A stretch of DNA of 64,000 bases from Luteitalea pratensis (lineage in GTDB: Bacteria > Acidobacteriota > Vicinamibacteria > Vicinamibacterales > Vicinamibacteraceae). Position 1 is the stretch's first letter. The number at the start of each line of letters is the position of its first letter. Below are positions 35,648 through 48,617 of this stretch, one piece after another. Made by a program: the position numbers and the translations under genes. The DNA lies in the NCBI RefSeq assembly GCF_001618865.1, contig NZ_CP015136.1, positions 6,421,001 through 6,485,000 of the forward strand, given 5' to 3'. A model generated the notes under the pieces. That model was given only the letters and a program-made list of their open reading frames with translations. It ran no database searches and was not told the DNA's origin.

Positions 35648-35703
35648 GGCTGCGGGCTGCAGGCTGCCTGCTCGCGTAGCCGGTAGCCCGAAGCCTGTAG
35701 CCT
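35648..35703. repeat. Two heptamer arrays (ggctgcN and gtagccN)
   Basis: Positions 35648-35668 carry three units of ggctgc plus a variable seventh base. Positions 35676-35703 carry four units gtagccg, gtagccc, gaagcct, gtagcct. The second array runs into the stop codon (35702-35704) of the lipoprotein gene. CAGGC and GCCTG ends make part of it palindromic. Confidence 0.85.
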
Positions 35704-37105
35704 ACCTGGCGCTCTCTCGCACCCGGTTGCTCTCCGGGCTCGCGTTGGCCGGCGTCGACTTGTCGACCGCGACGACCGCATAGATGTACATCACGCCGGC
35801 CTGCGCGCTCGTGTCCCGATAGGTCGCCTCGGTGACCGGCGTCTCGGTGATTGGCTTGAGCGCCTCGCCTTCGACGCCCCGCAGCACCAGGTACCCGAGC
35901 AGGTCAGGAGCGGTGACCGGTTCCCATATCAGCGAGACGCCGCCGCCGCTGCCCACGGCGACGAGGCCTGTCGGTGCCGGCGGCGGGTAGGTGTCGACGG
36001 CGGTGACGCAGGTGGACGGCGACAGCGGACTCTCGATCGTGACCGCGCCCCGCTTCTCCACGGTGCGCAACGCGTAGCACCGCGCGACGCCGAAGGTCAT
36101 CCGCGGGTCGTTGAACGTCGTCGTCTCGATTGGCGTGGTGTTGATGGGCCCGCCCGGTGGCGGGCTGGTCACGCCCGGCGCAGGCACTTCGTAGACGCGA
36201 TACGACTGCGGCGTGCCGTAGAGCACGAGCGGACGCGCCGGCAGCAGCGCATCCTCCTGCTTGGCCGCCATGGCCGCCTTGTAGGCGGCGTCGGTAACCG
36301 TTGGCTGGATGGGCATTTGCGCGCCCGGAGGCGTCGTCCAGGTGAGCGTGAACGACGTCGCATCGTGCGTCACGGCCGGCGCGGGCGGCGCCGGCGGCGC
36401 CGGTACGAGCGGTACGGCCAGCGGCGTCGAGGGCGGCCCGGCGGTGCCCCGCGTGGAATACGGGATGACGATGTAATGCCGCGCAACCTGCGTCTCCGGC
36501 TGCGGCCAGAGGAGGATGCGGCCCGTTCCCTCTGTCGAGGGCACCGGCGCATCGTCCACGTCGTCTCCGACGGCGGCACGGATCTTCGCGACCTTGGCGG
36601 CGTCGGGGTGCTCGAAGATGGTCGTGCGCAGCGTGTCCGTCAGCGTCTCTTCGACGCGAACGACGTCGCCCTGTGCGGGCCGCGGATCCACCGGTGCGGC
36701 TGGCGTCGGCGCGGCAGCAGGCTGCGCCTGCTCGCCGGCTTTGCCCGGCTGCACTTCCCCTTCAGGCGGGGGCGGCGGCTGTACCTCGACACGCCCGACG
36801 TGGGTCAGCAACCCCTCCATCTCACGAACGGTCAGCGCCCGGGCCAGCGGTCCCTCGGGCTTCCCGGTCGCGGCATAGACATCAACGTAGGCCAGGTCGG
36901 CCGGGGTGGAGCCGTCGCCGTTGCCTGTCGGCACGGTGAACTGCACCTGCACCGTTTCGCCGAGGCGCGACGCGGTGACATCGGAGATCGCGGCGGGGCT
37001 TGGCCGGTGGGGCGCCAACGGGGGCCCCTTCTTCCCACACGCGGTCGTGATCGGGAGCATACTGGCGAGCAAGACACTGAGCAGGAGTGGTCGGGCGCAA
37101 TGCAC
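35702..37105 (-). CDS. Fibronectin-type-III-like lipoprotein
   Basis: 467 residues from a GTG preceded by AGGGGG. The signal [17 protein letters not shown] ends in a lipobox with Cys at 23. The mature N-terminus [10 protein letters not shown] matches the short LptM/YifL-type lipoprotein motif (CGxKGPL) that contacts the LPS translocon in enterobacteria. Next come fibronectin-III-like modules ([54 protein letters not shown]) separated by Pro/Ala-rich spacers. It is probably an outer-membrane-anchored lipoprotein facing the periplasm. A role in LPS assembly is speculative and rests only on the N-terminal motif. Confidence 0.75.
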
Positions 37106-37203
37106 GGGCCCCCTATCGTACTCTGCGGGCGACGAGGTGACGCCTCACGGGGACAACCGCAAGCGCGATGCCCGCTGGCGCGTGATGAACGGCGGCGCCT
37201 GTG

Positions 37204-37219
37204 TGGCAGGCTTGTTGCA
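37204..37219 (+). promoter_or_regulatory. Sigma-54 promoter before the PEGA gene
   Basis: TGGCAGGCTTGTTGCA has the invariant GG (37205-37206) and GC (37217-37218) ten bases apart and a full TTGCA -12 box. Transcription should start near 37230, giving a 22-base leader that includes GGAG (37242-37245) six bases before the ATG at 37252. Confidence 0.75.
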
Positions 37220-37251
37220 GATTCCGAGCCGTACCCCGTCCGGAGTGCACC

Positions 37252-38172
37252 ATGAAGAGCACACTCGTCACATCGATCCTGCTCGCAGGGCTCGTGTTCG
37301 TGAATACGCCCTCGGCCGTCCAGGCCCAGCACAACCGCAACCCGAGCGGCGGCGGTGGCGGCAGCTCGAGTGGCGGAACTTCCAGTGGGGGGAGTTCGAG
37401 CGGTAGCGACAGCACAGGGAGCGCGGTGCCGCGCGGTGGCGGCAGTTCGCCGTGGGGCGGTGGCAGCGTCTCATCCCGGCCGAGTGAGCCGACTTCGTCC
37501 TCATCCGGCGCCCGCGGTCCGGCACGGGTGTCCGGCAGCGGTACACGGTCGTACGGCAGCAACGGTGCCGATGGCGGCACCGGGAGCACGACCGTGCCGC
37601 CGTACTCGCGCGCCCGCAATGGCGCTCCCGTGACCGGCTATGGCGTGCCGCGCGGATCGGTGGCCACGTTGCCGCCGATTATCTCGGGCCCGATCTACTG
37701 GGGTCCGGACGACTGGTACTTCTATCCCTGGGGTTACGGAGCGCTCGCCCTTGGGTATTTCTGGGATCCGTGGATGTGGACCGGGTACTACGGCGGCGGT
37801 GGCTACCCGTGGATGGACCCGTACTGGAGCGGTGGCGGCGGAGGCGGGGGCGGCAGCTACGGCAGCTGGGACAACGCCAACGGCTCGCCTGACGCCAACA
37901 GTCAGTCGCCGGCGGAGGAGAACCCGCTGGACTCGAACGGCCCGACAGGTGGACTACGCCTGAAGGTGGAGCCGCGGGAGGCCGAGGTCTACGTCGACGG
38001 CTTCTACGCCGGTCGCGTCGATGACTTCGATGGCGCGATGCAGAAACTGAAGGTCGTCCAGGGTTCGCATCGCATCGAGTTGCGCGCGGAGGGGTACGAG
38101 ACGGCGACGTTCACGGTCAACGTCATCGCCGGCGAGACCACGAGCTACAAGACCGAGCTGAAGCGTCATTGA
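37252..38172 (+). CDS. Exported Gly/Ser/Tyr-rich protein with C-terminal PEGA domain
   Basis: 306 residues. The signal peptide (LVTSILLAGLVFVNTPSAVQAQ) leads into about 100 residues of Gly/Ser repeats (GGGGGSSSGGTSSGGSSSGS). An aromatic Gly-rich stretch follows (YWGPDDWYFYPWGYGALALGY, partly quoted, and GGGGYPW-like turns), then a PEGA beta-sandwich (LKVEPREAEVYVDGFYAGRV...GSHRIELRAEGYE). PEGA domains are found on surface or periplasmic proteins and are thought to bind cell-wall or protein partners. The low-complexity region could be adhesive or structural. The ATG at 37252 follows a sigma-54 promoter, so expression should depend on an NtrC-type activator. Confidence 0.8.
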   Translation: MKSTLVTSILLAGLVFVNTPSAVQAQHNRNPSGGGGGSSSGGTSSGGSSSGSDSTGSAVPRGGGSSPWGGGSVSSRPSEPTSSSSGARGPARVSGSGTRSYGSNGADGGTGSTTVPPYSRARNGAPVTGYGVPRGSVATLPPIISGPIYWGPDDWYFYPWGYGALALGYFWDPWMWTGYYGGGGYPWMDPYWSGGGGGGGGSYGSWDNANGSPDANSQSPAEENPLDSNGPTGGLRLKVEPREAEVYVDGFYAGRVDDFDGAMQKLKVVQGSHRIELRAEGYETATFTVNVIAGETTSYKTELKRH

Positions 38173-38185
38173 TAGGCTGTGGCGC

Positions 38186-38545
38186 ATGGCGCCACGGCTG
38201 GCCACGCACCTTCTGGGCCTCTGCAACGTCGTTGCAGGGGCCCTCGTCGCATGTGCCCCCGTGATCCTCATGCCGGGACTGAACGGACTCGACTCGCCGG
38301 GCGCACGTCTTCTCGGCGTGTCACTTGGCGTCGTGCTCGTATCCGTGGGTATCGGCGCCTGGCTCATCCCTGCCGACGGACGTCGGGTCTACCTGTGGAT
38401 CTTCGGGGTGGCCGTCAAGGTCGTGGCCTCGGCCGTCTGGGGCGCCGCCGCGCTGACGACCGGCGTGGCGATGCTGGCCGCTGGGGCAGCCCTCGATCTG
38501 GCGGTCGCGCTGGCCATTGCCGGCATGTTGAGCAACACGCGCTAG
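38186..38545 (+). CDS. Small four-helix membrane protein, unknown
   Basis: 119 residues, nearly all hydrophobic: segments LLGLCNVVAGALVACAPVIL, GVSLGVVLVSVGIGAWLI, WIFGVAVKVVASAVWGAA and ALDLAVALAIAGML make four membrane helices. I recognise no family. The gene starts 13 bases after the PEGA gene stop, so it is probably cotranscribed from the sigma-54 promoter. A GTAG-type palindrome follows its stop within a few bases. Confidence 0.65.
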   Translation: MAPRLATHLLGLCNVVAGALVACAPVILMPGLNGLDSPGARLLGVSLGVVLVSVGIGAWLIPADGRRVYLWIFGVAVKVVASAVWGAAALTTGVAMLAAGAALDLAVALAIAGMLSNTR

Positions 38546-41682: not shown

Positions 41683-42519
41683 TCAGGGTCGTGGCTGTGT
41701 CGCGGCCACCCGGCGCAGCAGATCACCGCGCTGCTGCTCGATGCGCTGGAGGGTCTGCTCGACCTGGACGATGTCGCTTTGACGGGCAAGTTCGAACTGG
41801 CGGCCGAGTTCGGTAACCCGGAGCGCGAGGTTGGCCTGCTGACGGATTTCGCTTTGATCGAGCAGATCCTGCACCTGCTTCAGTAACTCGGCGTCGCTCG
41901 TGGTCCGGCCCGGGGCTGCTGGCGTGGCCTGCACTGCCGCGCGCAGCGCGACGGGCCCCTGCTCATGCCGGTTTTCCTGAATCATCCGGCTGACGTCGCC
42001 GCGAATCTGGGTGGCGAGCAGGTCGAAGTCCGCACGCCACGGCGGCTCGCCCACTGCCGCCGTGCTGACCCAGGTGCCCTCAGTGGGCGTGGCTGGTGCG
42101 GCGGTCCTGGCGGTCTTGAGCGAATCGGTGGAAGACACGGCAGCGTTGGCGCGCTCCGGGATCCGTTCGACTCCGGTCCGAATGCGCAGGCCCTGCTCGC
42201 TGTAGGTGATGTCGAAGCGGGCGAGCGACACGGCTGCGCCAAGGACGAGAACGGCGGCAGCCGCGAGCCCACCTCTCCAGAGTGTGGTACGCCACGGCGA
42301 CCGTTCGGTGTGGACGAACGCGAAACCAAGTGGGAGGCGTGGAGCGTGCCAGGCGCCAAGCGCCCCCCGGGCGGTGTCGAGCGACGTCAAGACGTCAGCG
42401 CACTGTGGGCACCGATTGACGTGGGCCTGCAGGAGCGCCCTTTCGTCGGGTGCGCCCTCATCGTCGTAGAGCAGGACGAGCAAGGCATCGGGGTCAGGAC
42501 AGGGCGTCACATCGGTCAT
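41683..42519 (-). CDS. Anti-sigma factor with zinc-finger domain
   Basis: 278 residues. The N-terminal 60 residues form a zf-HC2-type anti-sigma domain with the HxxxCxxC zinc site (HVNRCPQC) and preceding Asp/Glu-rich helix. One membrane segment follows (LAAAAVLVLGAAVSLA, about 85-100), and then an extracytoplasmic region with two helical, Gln-rich stretches (ELLKQVQDLLDQSEIRQQ; EQTLQRIEQQRGDLL) likely to be coiled coil. It should bind and hold the ECF sigma factor encoded 12 bases upstream until an envelope signal releases it. Confidence 0.88.
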   Translation of the reverse strand: MTDVTPCPDPDALLVLLYDDEGAPDERALLQAHVNRCPQCADVLTSLDTARGALGAWHAPRLPLGFAFVHTERSPWRTTLWRGGLAAAAVLVLGAAVSLARFDITYSEQGLRIRTGVERIPERANAAVSSTDSLKTARTAAPATPTEGTWVSTAAVGEPPWRADFDLLATQIRGDVSRMIQENRHEQGPVALRAAVQATPAAPGRTTSDAELLKQVQDLLDQSEIRQQANLALRVTELGRQFELARQSDIVQVEQTLQRIEQQRGDLLRRVAATQPRP

Positions 42520-42531
42520 GTTGCGTAGCCG

Positions 42532-43281
42532 TCAGCGTCGACGCGCCTCCGCGCCAGACGCTGGCCGTGCATGCGGGAGCACCACGTCTGCCGTGATGCC
42601 CTGCCGCTCCAGCTCTCGCCGGAGCACGACCAACCCCTGGTAGAGGCGTGTCTTCACTGTACTCAAGGGGCAGTCCAGCAGATCCGCGATCTCCTGGAAC
42701 GTGAGCCCCTGGTATTCCTTGAGGACAATGGCCTTTCGCTGATCTTCGCTCAGCGCCGCCATGGCCCGGTTGACTGCGGCGCCCAGGTCCCGGCGCGCCA
42801 CCAGATCCTCGACCGACTCCACCGGCCCGTGCTCGCCGGCAAGCTCGATCACATCCACACCTTCGGGCGCCTCGACAAACGGCGCCCGCTTCTGCCGCCG
42901 GATCCAGTCACGGCAGAGGTTCAGGGTAATCCGATACAGCCACGACGAGAACTTCGCGTCGCCGCGGAAACCGCCGAGCGACCGGTAGGCGCGAAGGAAT
43001 GCCTCCTGCACGAGGTCGCGCGCTTCTTCCTCGCGCCCGATGACCCGGTACGCCAAGGCATAGATTGGCCGCTCCCAGCGAACTACCAGCTGGTTGAAGC
43101 TGTCGACATCGCCACCCGCGGAACGGGCAACGAGCTCCTCGTCGCTGGATGTCATCTGCACAGCAGGGCTCGGGGCATCGCCTCCTCGTGTCCTGTTCTT
43201 CTGACGCACGGGGGCGGAAATGGTTGGTTCGGACACCTGCAGGTGTCGAAGCTGGTCTCCGGTGAGGACAGATGCGGACAT
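42532..43281 (-). CDS. ECF (sigma-E-like) RNA polymerase sigma factor
   Basis: 249 residues. Sigma region 2 is seen in FNQLVVRWERPIYALAYRVI with ARDLVQEAFLRAYRSL and FSSWLYRITLNLCRDWIRR. Region 4 follows as LSEDQRKAIVLKEYQGLTF with the helix-turn-helix EIADLLDCPLSTVKTRLYQG. A 45-residue N-terminal extension precedes region 2. The ATG at 43279-43281 is preferred because GGAG lies seven bases upstream; an ATG at 43155 has no ribosome site. The anti-sigma gene follows at once. A sigma-54 promoter (43306-43321) predicts a 14-base leader, so this ECF factor may be under sigma-54 control. Confidence 0.93.
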   Translation of the reverse strand: MSASVLTGDQLRHLQVSEPTISAPVRQKNRTRGGDAPSPAVQMTSSDEELVARSAGGDVDSFNQLVVRWERPIYALAYRVIGREEEARDLVQEAFLRAYRSLGGFRGDAKFSSWLYRITLNLCRDWIRRQKRAPFVEAPEGVDVIELAGEHGPVESVEDLVARRDLGAAVNRAMAALSEDQRKAIVLKEYQGLTFQEIADLLDCPLSTVKTRLYQGLVVLRRELERQGITADVVLPHARPASGAEARRR

Positions 43282-43305
43282 TGGCACGCTCCTGCGCGCC
43301 CTCAG

Positions 43306-43321
43306 TGCAAGCCTCCGGCCA
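43306..43321 (-). promoter_or_regulatory. Sigma-54 promoter before the ECF sigma gene
   Basis: On the minus strand TGGCCGGAGGCTTGCA: invariant GG and GC ten bases apart and a full TTGCA. The predicted start is near 43295, with AGGAG and then ATG (43281) directly downstream. Confidence 0.65.
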
Positions 43322-43580
43322 AAGGACGCTCTCGAACGTCCGGTCACAAATCTTTCACAAACAGGCCGAAATACTGGCAAAACCGAGTGACGACCAACTT
43401 GCCGGCGATCACTGCAGCAGGCGCGTCGACCCGACGCTTACGTACCTCGAAAAAGCTGACGCGCCCGCGTCGCCACTCTTGACTGCTTCGATCCTCGGCA
43501 TTCGTCCTTCGGCCATGAGTCAGGCGTTAGGCGTTAGGCGTCAGGCGTTGGCCTGCCGCCCTCCTGCTAGGATCGCGGGC
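43322..43580. other. Divergent intergenic region with 7-bp array (aggcgtt)
   Basis: This region lies between the ECF sigma gene and the ABC-F gene. Positions 43522-43549 hold four units of aggcgtt (one aggcgtc). The part at 43346-43385 is relatively AT-rich. I see no gene, and no strong sigma-70 promoter for the ABC-F gene. Confidence 0.7.
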
Positions 43581-45837: not shown

Positions 45838-47064
45838 ATGTGCGCCCACCACCTGAAACCGTTACCCGGATCTGCAGCGGCAGGCTCGCCCAGCTTGGCG
45901 GCCAATCGGCGAAGTGACGATCTGGTGCCCGAGCGGTTCTACCGGGACCTCATTTCCGGAATGCGTAATGGCGTCATCGTGATTCGTCGCGATGGCACGC
46001 TGGTCGCCATCAACGACGCGGCCTACGCCTCACTCGACATGCTGCCGGGGTCGGCCGACGTCGGGCGCCCCATCGCCACCGTGCTCGCAGACGTCCCGGA
46101 AATGGTGCGCGTGCTGGACGGCGCCTTTGGCAGTGACCCCCTTCCTAACCGGGCCGAGGTCAAGCTGGCGCATACGGGCCGGTCGATTGGCTTCACCCTG
46201 TCGCTCGTCCGCGACCCGCTCGGGCTGATAACCGGTGCTGCGCTCTTCTTCCGGGACCTCACCCGCGTGGAGCAGCTCGAGGAACGGGAGCGGCTGCGGG
46301 ATCGGCTCGCCGCCCTCGGCGAGATGGCCGCCGCCATTGCCCACGAGGTCAAGAACCCGCTGGCCGGGATCGAGGTGATGGCCGGGCTGCTCAAGCGTCG
46401 CCTCTCCGACAACCCGGAGGCGCAGACGATGCTGGCCGACATCATCGGCGAGGCCAAGATGGCCAACGCGATCGTGATGGAGGTGCTGGACTTCGTCCGT
46501 CCGGTGCGATTGCAGGTCGAGGACGTCGAGGTCGCCGAGCTCGTCCAGGACTCGCTGCACATGGCCGACAGCCTGGTCCCCCGCGGTAACGTCGCGGTGA
46601 GTGTCGACGTACCCGAGGACCTGCCACCGGTGCAGGGCGACGGCCACCAGTTGCGGCAGGTCTTCACGAACCTGCTCACCAACGCGCTCGAGGCACTCGG
46701 CGGCGAGGGTCGCCTGATCGTTCAGGCCACGGCTCTGGACCGCCTGCCCTTCCCCGCCACGCCTGACCATCCGCAAGGTCCCGGTGTGGAGGTCACCGTG
46801 CTCGACGACGGCCCGGGCATCCCCGAGGCGATGCGCGAGCGGATCTTCAACCCGTTCTTCACGACCAAACCGCGCGGGTCTGGCCTCGGTTTGGCGATCG
46901 TGCGCAAGGTCGTGGACGCCCACGAGGGCCGGATCGAAGTGCAACCGGGCCTCGACGGATCGGGCACGTGCTTCCGGCTGCTCCTACCGCTGGCGCCATC
47001 ACTGGAACAGGTCCCGGTGCGCCTGCCCGACGACGGCGCGCCAGGAGGGCCGAGGCCTCGTTGA
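45838..47064 (+). CDS. Soluble NtrB-type histidine kinase with PAS domain
   Basis: 408 residues, no membrane segment, so a cytoplasmic sensor. A PAS domain covers about 30-145 (LISGMRNGVIVIRRDG...ALFFRDLTRVEQLE). The H-box is AAAIAHEVKNPLAG with the phospho-His at 169. The N box is NLLTNALEAL, G1 VLDDGPGIP, the F box FNPFFTTKPRG and G2 GSGLGLAI. The PAS/HisKA architecture is that of NtrB/AtoS-like kinases that partner sigma-54 activators. The response regulator follows after 146 bases of repeats. The region before the start is relatively AT-rich (45700-45830), so the promoter should be there. Confidence 0.92.
   Translation: MCAHHLKPLPGSAAAGSPSLAANRRSDDLVPERFYRDLISGMRNGVIVIRRDGTLVAINDAAYASLDMLPGSADVGRPIATVLADVPEMVRVLDGAFGSDPLPNRAEVKLAHTGRSIGFTLSLVRDPLGLITGAALFFRDLTRVEQLEERERLRDRLAALGEMAAAIAHEVKNPLAGIEVMAGLLKRRLSDNPEAQTMLADIIGEAKMANAIVMEVLDFVRPVRLQVEDVEVAELVQDSLHMADSLVPRGNVAVSVDVPEDLPPVQGDGHQLRQVFTNLLTNALEALGGEGRLIVQATALDRLPFPATPDHPQGPGVEVTVLDDGPGIPEAMRERIFNPFFTTKPRGSGLGLAIVRKVVDAHEGRIEVQPGLDGSGTCFRLLLPLAPSLEQVPVRLPDDGAPGGPRPR

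Positions 47065-47210: not shown

Positions 47211-48617
<1,407 letters not shown>

Follow-up and report, generated by a model that had tools for sequence, protein, structure and literature searches.

The site TGGCAGGCTTGTTGCA at positions 37204–37219 is, with a probability of roughly 0.92, a working sigma-54 promoter belonging to an order-wide regulon in which genes for exported PEGA proteins are activated through upstream dyads. It lies on the forward strand of the window, the 64,000-nt stretch of Luteitalea pratensis DNA analysed here, which comes from a genome available as a single contig of 7,480,314 bp (coded G000 below). The regulon is newly recognised; its mechanism is standard sigma-54 biology, in which promoters served by Fis-type activators combine a −24/−12 element with phased enhancer sites on one helical face. 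The observation made in the initial annotation is confirmed by our comparison, and the interpretation placed on it is largely supported and extended.

The letters and coordinates of TGGCAGGCTTGTTGCA and the spacing of its GG and GC dinucleotides match those first described, and the two dinucleotides fit the −24/−12 spacing of a sigma-54 promoter. As claimed, 32 nt separate the site from the ATG at 37252, and a ribosome-binding site, CCGGAG (37240–37245, forward strand), is located between promoter and start codon; the spacing to the promoter elements predicts a transcript start near 37230. The genome encodes rpoN (PF00309, E 2.5e-15). As a lone string, TGGCAGGCTTGTTGCA is unremarkable against chance and not significant: TGGCAN6TTGCW has 18 exact matches genome-wide versus 17 for the reversed pattern, and TGGCAYRN4TTGCW, allowing two mismatches, occurs 19 times in the window against 18.85 expected. 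Single-site statistics are thus uninformative, and the promoter call stands because the site is conserved before PEGA genes.

Within the genus, the 16-mer is identical in four of five genomes (the window's own counted) and reads TGGCAGAATTGTTGCA in the fifth; the flanking sequence of these promoters diverges and the sigma-54 site is kept. Conservation in relatives, a check set beforehand, was then examined in 60 genomes (the window's own and 59 relatives), 53 of which supplied 108 PEGA matches from 30 plus 78 loci; second domains of one gene, the G013 match and several others (for example G041:C96, G004:C301 and weaker ones) are left out of the 108. Among the matches listed, 42 of the 108 have an exact upstream site and 81 carry one within a single mismatch; the promoters of L004, L005, L011 and L027 were added to these true-pattern counts, with the controls left unadjusted for them. 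The control patterns gave no exact match on the same PEGA set, and at one mismatch 4 (reversed), 2 (spacing shortened by one) and 5 (spacing lengthened by one). Counted per genome, again among the matches listed, the site is exact in 37 of 53 and within one mismatch in 49 of 53; for families with an examined match the figures are 11 and 14 of 15, and since related promoters have common ancestry these counts are not independent events. The 27 matches that lack a site at this threshold include two paralogues in the window's own genome, and some are cut by contig ends.

Gene order agrees with this pattern, as the best PEGA homologue in relatives lies within the common gene order. Across 20 syntenic regions, picked from the loci of an earlier site scan once that scan had been made, the site before the PEGA gene is exact in 18 and has one mismatch in the other 2. 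With the motifs fixed, we also scored 49 further loci from another collection (the best 80 of 140 found, minus 19 duplicates and 12 truncated loci), which had not been used in motif finding, though some may be further genes from genomes that had contributed before: the site is exact in 37 and has at most one mismatch in 43, against no exact control match and, at one mismatch, 6 (reversed), 0 and 0 (the two altered spacings). One locus, G045:C79:63158–66250 (L175), holds three tandem PEGA genes with an exact site before each.

Upstream of the promoter are two copies, to which no strand is assigned, of the dyad TGTCCTC-N4-GAGGACA, a putative activator site. The distal copy, CGTACTCTGCGGGCGACG (37117–37134), scores 9/14 at 87 bp before the −24 element, and the proximal copy, TGACGCCTCACGGGGACA (37138–37155), scores 10/14 at 66 bp, placing the two 21 bp apart within 37117–37155. 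Over the five same-genus promoters the distal dyad scores 9, 9, 9, 9 and 11 at 87–91 bp and the proximal one 10, 8, 8, 9 and 11 at 66–70 bp, weak in two of them; the proximal dyad of the window sits in the helical phase common to other promoters. A sigma-54 site with at most one mismatch and a dyad of at least 10/14 at 60–129 bp upstream occur together at one place in the 64-kb window, namely 37204–37219.

The motif came out of the paralogue promoters. An initial dyad enumeration gave no strong motif, and in syntenic promoters both 5-mer ranks and motif fits were swamped by the divergent gene's conserved TTGACA-like block. The discovery set comprised 80 selected promoters from 49 genomes, 48 of these promoters being non-syntenic; in the 48, GGACA is the top-ranked 5-mer (20 of 48 versus 5.4 expected), and the pair GTCC..GGAC occurs 10 times at a spacing of 12, compared with at most 4 for any other pair spacing. 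A dyad of at least 10/14 is present in 59 of the 80 promoters versus 5.9 in dinucleotide shuffles, and one of at least 11/14 in 29 versus 0.5. Its distances to the −24 element fall at 66–71, 76–80, 86–91, 99–103, 112, 114, 120 and 125 bp, with outliers at 46, 166 and 180 bp, a phasing near 11 bp (R = 0.68 for the 56 distances within 55–130 bp) that 0 of 5,000 uniform sets reach.

Because the motif had been derived from the 80-promoter set, it was re-tested on the other loci with everything fixed. There the dyad is found in 35 of 43 site-bearing promoters versus 1.5 expected, at distances in the same phase (R = 0.64, 0 of 20,000). Pattern searches yielded 73 distinct sigma-54-like sites, at which the dyad accompanies 8 of 10 before PEGA genes versus 4 of 63 others; some of those 10 had been in the motif-finding set, and one dyad-bearing site among the others (L133) lies before a Gly-rich gene that a contig end truncates. 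The sigma-54 site is therefore preceded by a conserved, helically phased dyad at which an activator may bind, and the sigma-54 control first proposed from the window is supported jointly by the conservation of the site, the rpoN gene and this dyad. Two observations lie beside this pattern. Four genomes of the genus have a second PEGA paralogue (L290, L295, L292 and L284) with a TGGTAT-type site and a 9/14 dyad at 79–89 bp; and an outer-membrane-like protein gene (L113 1501, genome G029) has an exact sigma-54 site with a 12/14 dyad at 78 bp, making it a possible non-PEGA member of the regulon.

The gene behind the promoter (37252–38172, forward strand) encodes 306 amino acids, and its homologues align from the ATG at 37252. 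The product had been described as an exported low-complexity protein with a PEGA domain, and a signal peptide is indeed seen by eye, together with a body rich in Gly, Ser and Tyr and, at the C-terminus, a PEGA domain at residues 233–305 (37948–38166, forward strand; PF08308, E 2.2e-9, 37.5 bits against a cut-off of 20.8). Thirteen aligned homologues have in common a signal peptide, judged by eye, and then a Gly/Ser/Pro-rich stretch, the conserved motif SRPRG..P..G.AVPR, a Tyr/Trp/Gly-rich stretch and the PEGA domain. In the structure model the PEGA domain alone, which is beta-rich, is confident, and the rest is mostly below a pLDDT of 50; a fold search returned general beta-sandwich matches only (best E 4.4e-4), the nearest solved folds being small beta-sandwiches that include carboxypeptidase transthyretin-like domains. 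No PEP-CTERM signal matched the protein up to E 0.1. The protein resembles described PEGA-domain surface proteins (PMC2447325; PF08308) in having the PEGA domain within an exported protein, and differs from them in its low-confidence Gly/Ser- and Tyr/Trp-rich body, the SRPRG..P..G.AVPR motif and the link to sigma-54. A surface, motility or matrix function had been suggested at first; judging by export, composition and the likeness to PEP-CTERM proteins, the product would most likely be an inducible component of the cell envelope or extracellular matrix.

A small four-helix membrane protein had been proposed as a second product, and a hydrophobic open reading frame of 119 amino acids does follow (38186–38545, forward strand; no Pfam match above the cut-off), but it is not a conserved partner of the PEGA gene: homologues are present in 2 of 20 homologous regions, both of the same genus, and absent from a third region of that genus. 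On the other side, a divergent lipoprotein-like gene (35702–37105, reverse strand; an open reading frame without a Pfam match, syntenic in homologous regions) directly adjoins the PEGA promoter across 37105–37204, unlike the arrangement at L172 6667–8700 in the same family, where hslU- and hslV-like genes (by eye) separate the two. The TTGACA-like block, found in many promoters of the order, probably belongs to this divergent gene. Further along, 41683–43380 holds anti-sigma-like and ECF sigma-like genes (by position homology and by eye) that are syntenic in many regions, and the 17-mer TGGCAGCGCAGGTTGCA, perhaps coding, recurs across many genomes of the order.

Comparison of genomes is what ties promoter, dyad and phasing to PEGA genes, and it suggests the following mechanism. 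A Fis-type enhancer-binding activator would occupy the TGTCCTC-N4-GAGGACA dyads on a single helical face, at distances upstream of the −24 element that are mostly 66–103 bp and reach about 125 bp, and would touch sigma-54 RNA polymerase at −24/−12, so that the promoter would open in an ATP-driven step. The protein made and exported would combine a disordered body, rich in Gly/Ser/Pro and in Tyr/Trp/Gly, with a PEGA beta-sandwich at its C-terminus. This layout resembles general phased-enhancer sigma-54 promoters in its −24/−12 element, its dyads on one face and the NtrC-family activators in the genome, and within the literature searched it matches no known regulon, its target family and dyad both being new. 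No description of a sigma-54 PEGA regulon or of a GGACA enhancer was found in the literature searched, whose scope excluded most subscription papers.

Which activator drives the promoter is a separate matter, as the window's genome has 33 strong candidates (their proteins were taken from loci carrying 1.5 kb of flanking sequence, so long ones may be shortened). Our leading candidate, put forward tentatively, is the NtrC-like response regulator G000:C1:620633–622057. It is favoured because it is the only activator common to the five informative genomes with dyad-bearing PEGA genes (G015, G052, G024, G043 and G032), its family alone having reciprocal-best matches in all five. The dyads score 13/14 in G043 and 11/14 in G024, both at one-mismatch sites, and 12/14 in G032 at an exact site, and the support from G043 and G024 accordingly depends on one-mismatch promoters. 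The regulator gene adjoins a gene for a PDZ-GAF-PAS histidine kinase, and glycosyltransferase genes are nearby in both genomes whose surroundings were read. The same regulator is also present in G034, G037, G046 and G054, genomes with two activators apiece and no site-bearing PEGA gene among the matches listed; in those genomes it would have other targets, or the assignment is wrong. None of the genome's activator genes has an autoregulatory dyad of at least 11/14 with a sigma-54 site of at most two mismatches in the loci scanned.

It is also quite conceivable that the regulon is run by another activator (L052, L074, L078, L388 or the NtrX-like L055), or by different ones in different genomes. 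L052, L074, L078 and L388 are each found in four of the five informative genomes, and a gene may go missing from a draft assembly; L055 is found in 53 of 60 genomes. Even so, for each of these there is at least one genome that has a dyad-bearing PEGA gene and lacks the activator. The NtrX-like activator (G000:C1:4169269–4170768, L055), present in G024, G043 and G032, was at first our favourite, and its standing was weakened by its absence from G015 and G052.

The two-component pair about 9 kb downstream in the window itself, acting on a real promoter, is an unlikely source of the activator. It consists of a kinase-like gene (45838–47064, forward strand; homologues in many homologous regions) lying 5′ of an NtrC-like sigma-54 activator gene (47211–48617, forward strand; receiver, sigma-54 and HTH_8 domains). 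Synteny between this pair and the PEGA gene is seen in several genomes, and the activator, 92–96% identical within the genus, has an orthologue in 50 of 60 genomes; these do not include G032, G043 or G024, all with dyad-bearing PEGA promoters, and G007 and G016 have the orthologue yet no PEGA match among the matches listed. Because two of the four best dyads are in genomes without its gene, the window's activator probably does not regulate this promoter. An activator gene standing beside PEGA genes was also sought in the PEGA loci collected, and the only matches at E 1e-25 were of the window type (its own family or neighbours in it), located towards the edges of larger regions.

The closest parallel comes from PrsR, which is known to activate PEP-CTERM genes through sigma-54. 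According to PMC1569441, PrsR/PEP-CTERM promoters precede exported-protein genes and have a motif that ends in TTTACA, then a spacer of some 63 nt, then a −24/−12 site; RpoN dependence has been demonstrated for one PEP-CTERM-system gene (PMC9850573). The PEGA system is like PrsK/PrsR in that exported-protein genes have an activator motif some 60 nt ahead of a −24/−12 site, and our candidate activator likewise is an NtrC-like regulator adjoining a membrane kinase, near glycosyltransferases. That PrsR itself controls the promoter at 37204–37219 is very improbable. PrsR does score above its cut-off in the window's genome, where sigma-54-like sites occur near two PEP-CTERM genes, but it does so in 4 of 60 genomes (the best 23 candidates being scored in most), a distribution on which we reject it as the order-wide activator of sites present in 49 of 53. 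The PEGA proteins here lack a PEP-CTERM tail, in contrast to the PrsR regulon, and the dyad ends in GGACA instead of TTTACA, a comparison made by that end and not over the full 17-nt motif of PMC1569441. The sites in the window's genome (L042, L048 and L041) lie near a type IV pilin-like gene as well as the two PEP-CTERM genes. The PEGA system thus follows a logic similar to that of PrsR with another protein family and another dyad, and probably with another activator too. Just as improbable is a chance −24/−12 look-alike or the operator of another kind of regulator at 37204–37219: single matches of such quality are as frequent genome-wide as the reversed control, but the fixed-spacing conservation before PEGA genes, with wrong-spacing controls near zero, and the phased dyad that held on further loci both speak against it.

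The sigma-54 regulon of exported low-complexity PEGA proteins appears from these sequences to extend over the order, which we infer to be Vicinamibacterales, and to be distinct from PrsR/PEP-CTERM. Vicinamibacteria (subdivision 6) are soil acidobacteria of which few members have been cultured. One possible reading, which we hold loosely, is that in this class a two-component pair, a PDZ-sensor histidine kinase and its NtrC-like regulator encoded beside glycosyltransferase genes, switches on a multi-gene family of Gly/Tyr-rich PEGA matrix proteins through TGTCCTC-N4-GAGGACA enhancers; if true, this regulon would play in acidobacteria the part that PrsK/PrsR and PEP-CTERM play elsewhere. The analysis gives a defined promoter, enhancer motif and protein family, which makes expression, and through it the activating signal, directly testable, and it suggests that a family of exported low-complexity proteins outside PEP-CTERM can have sigma-54 dedicated to it.
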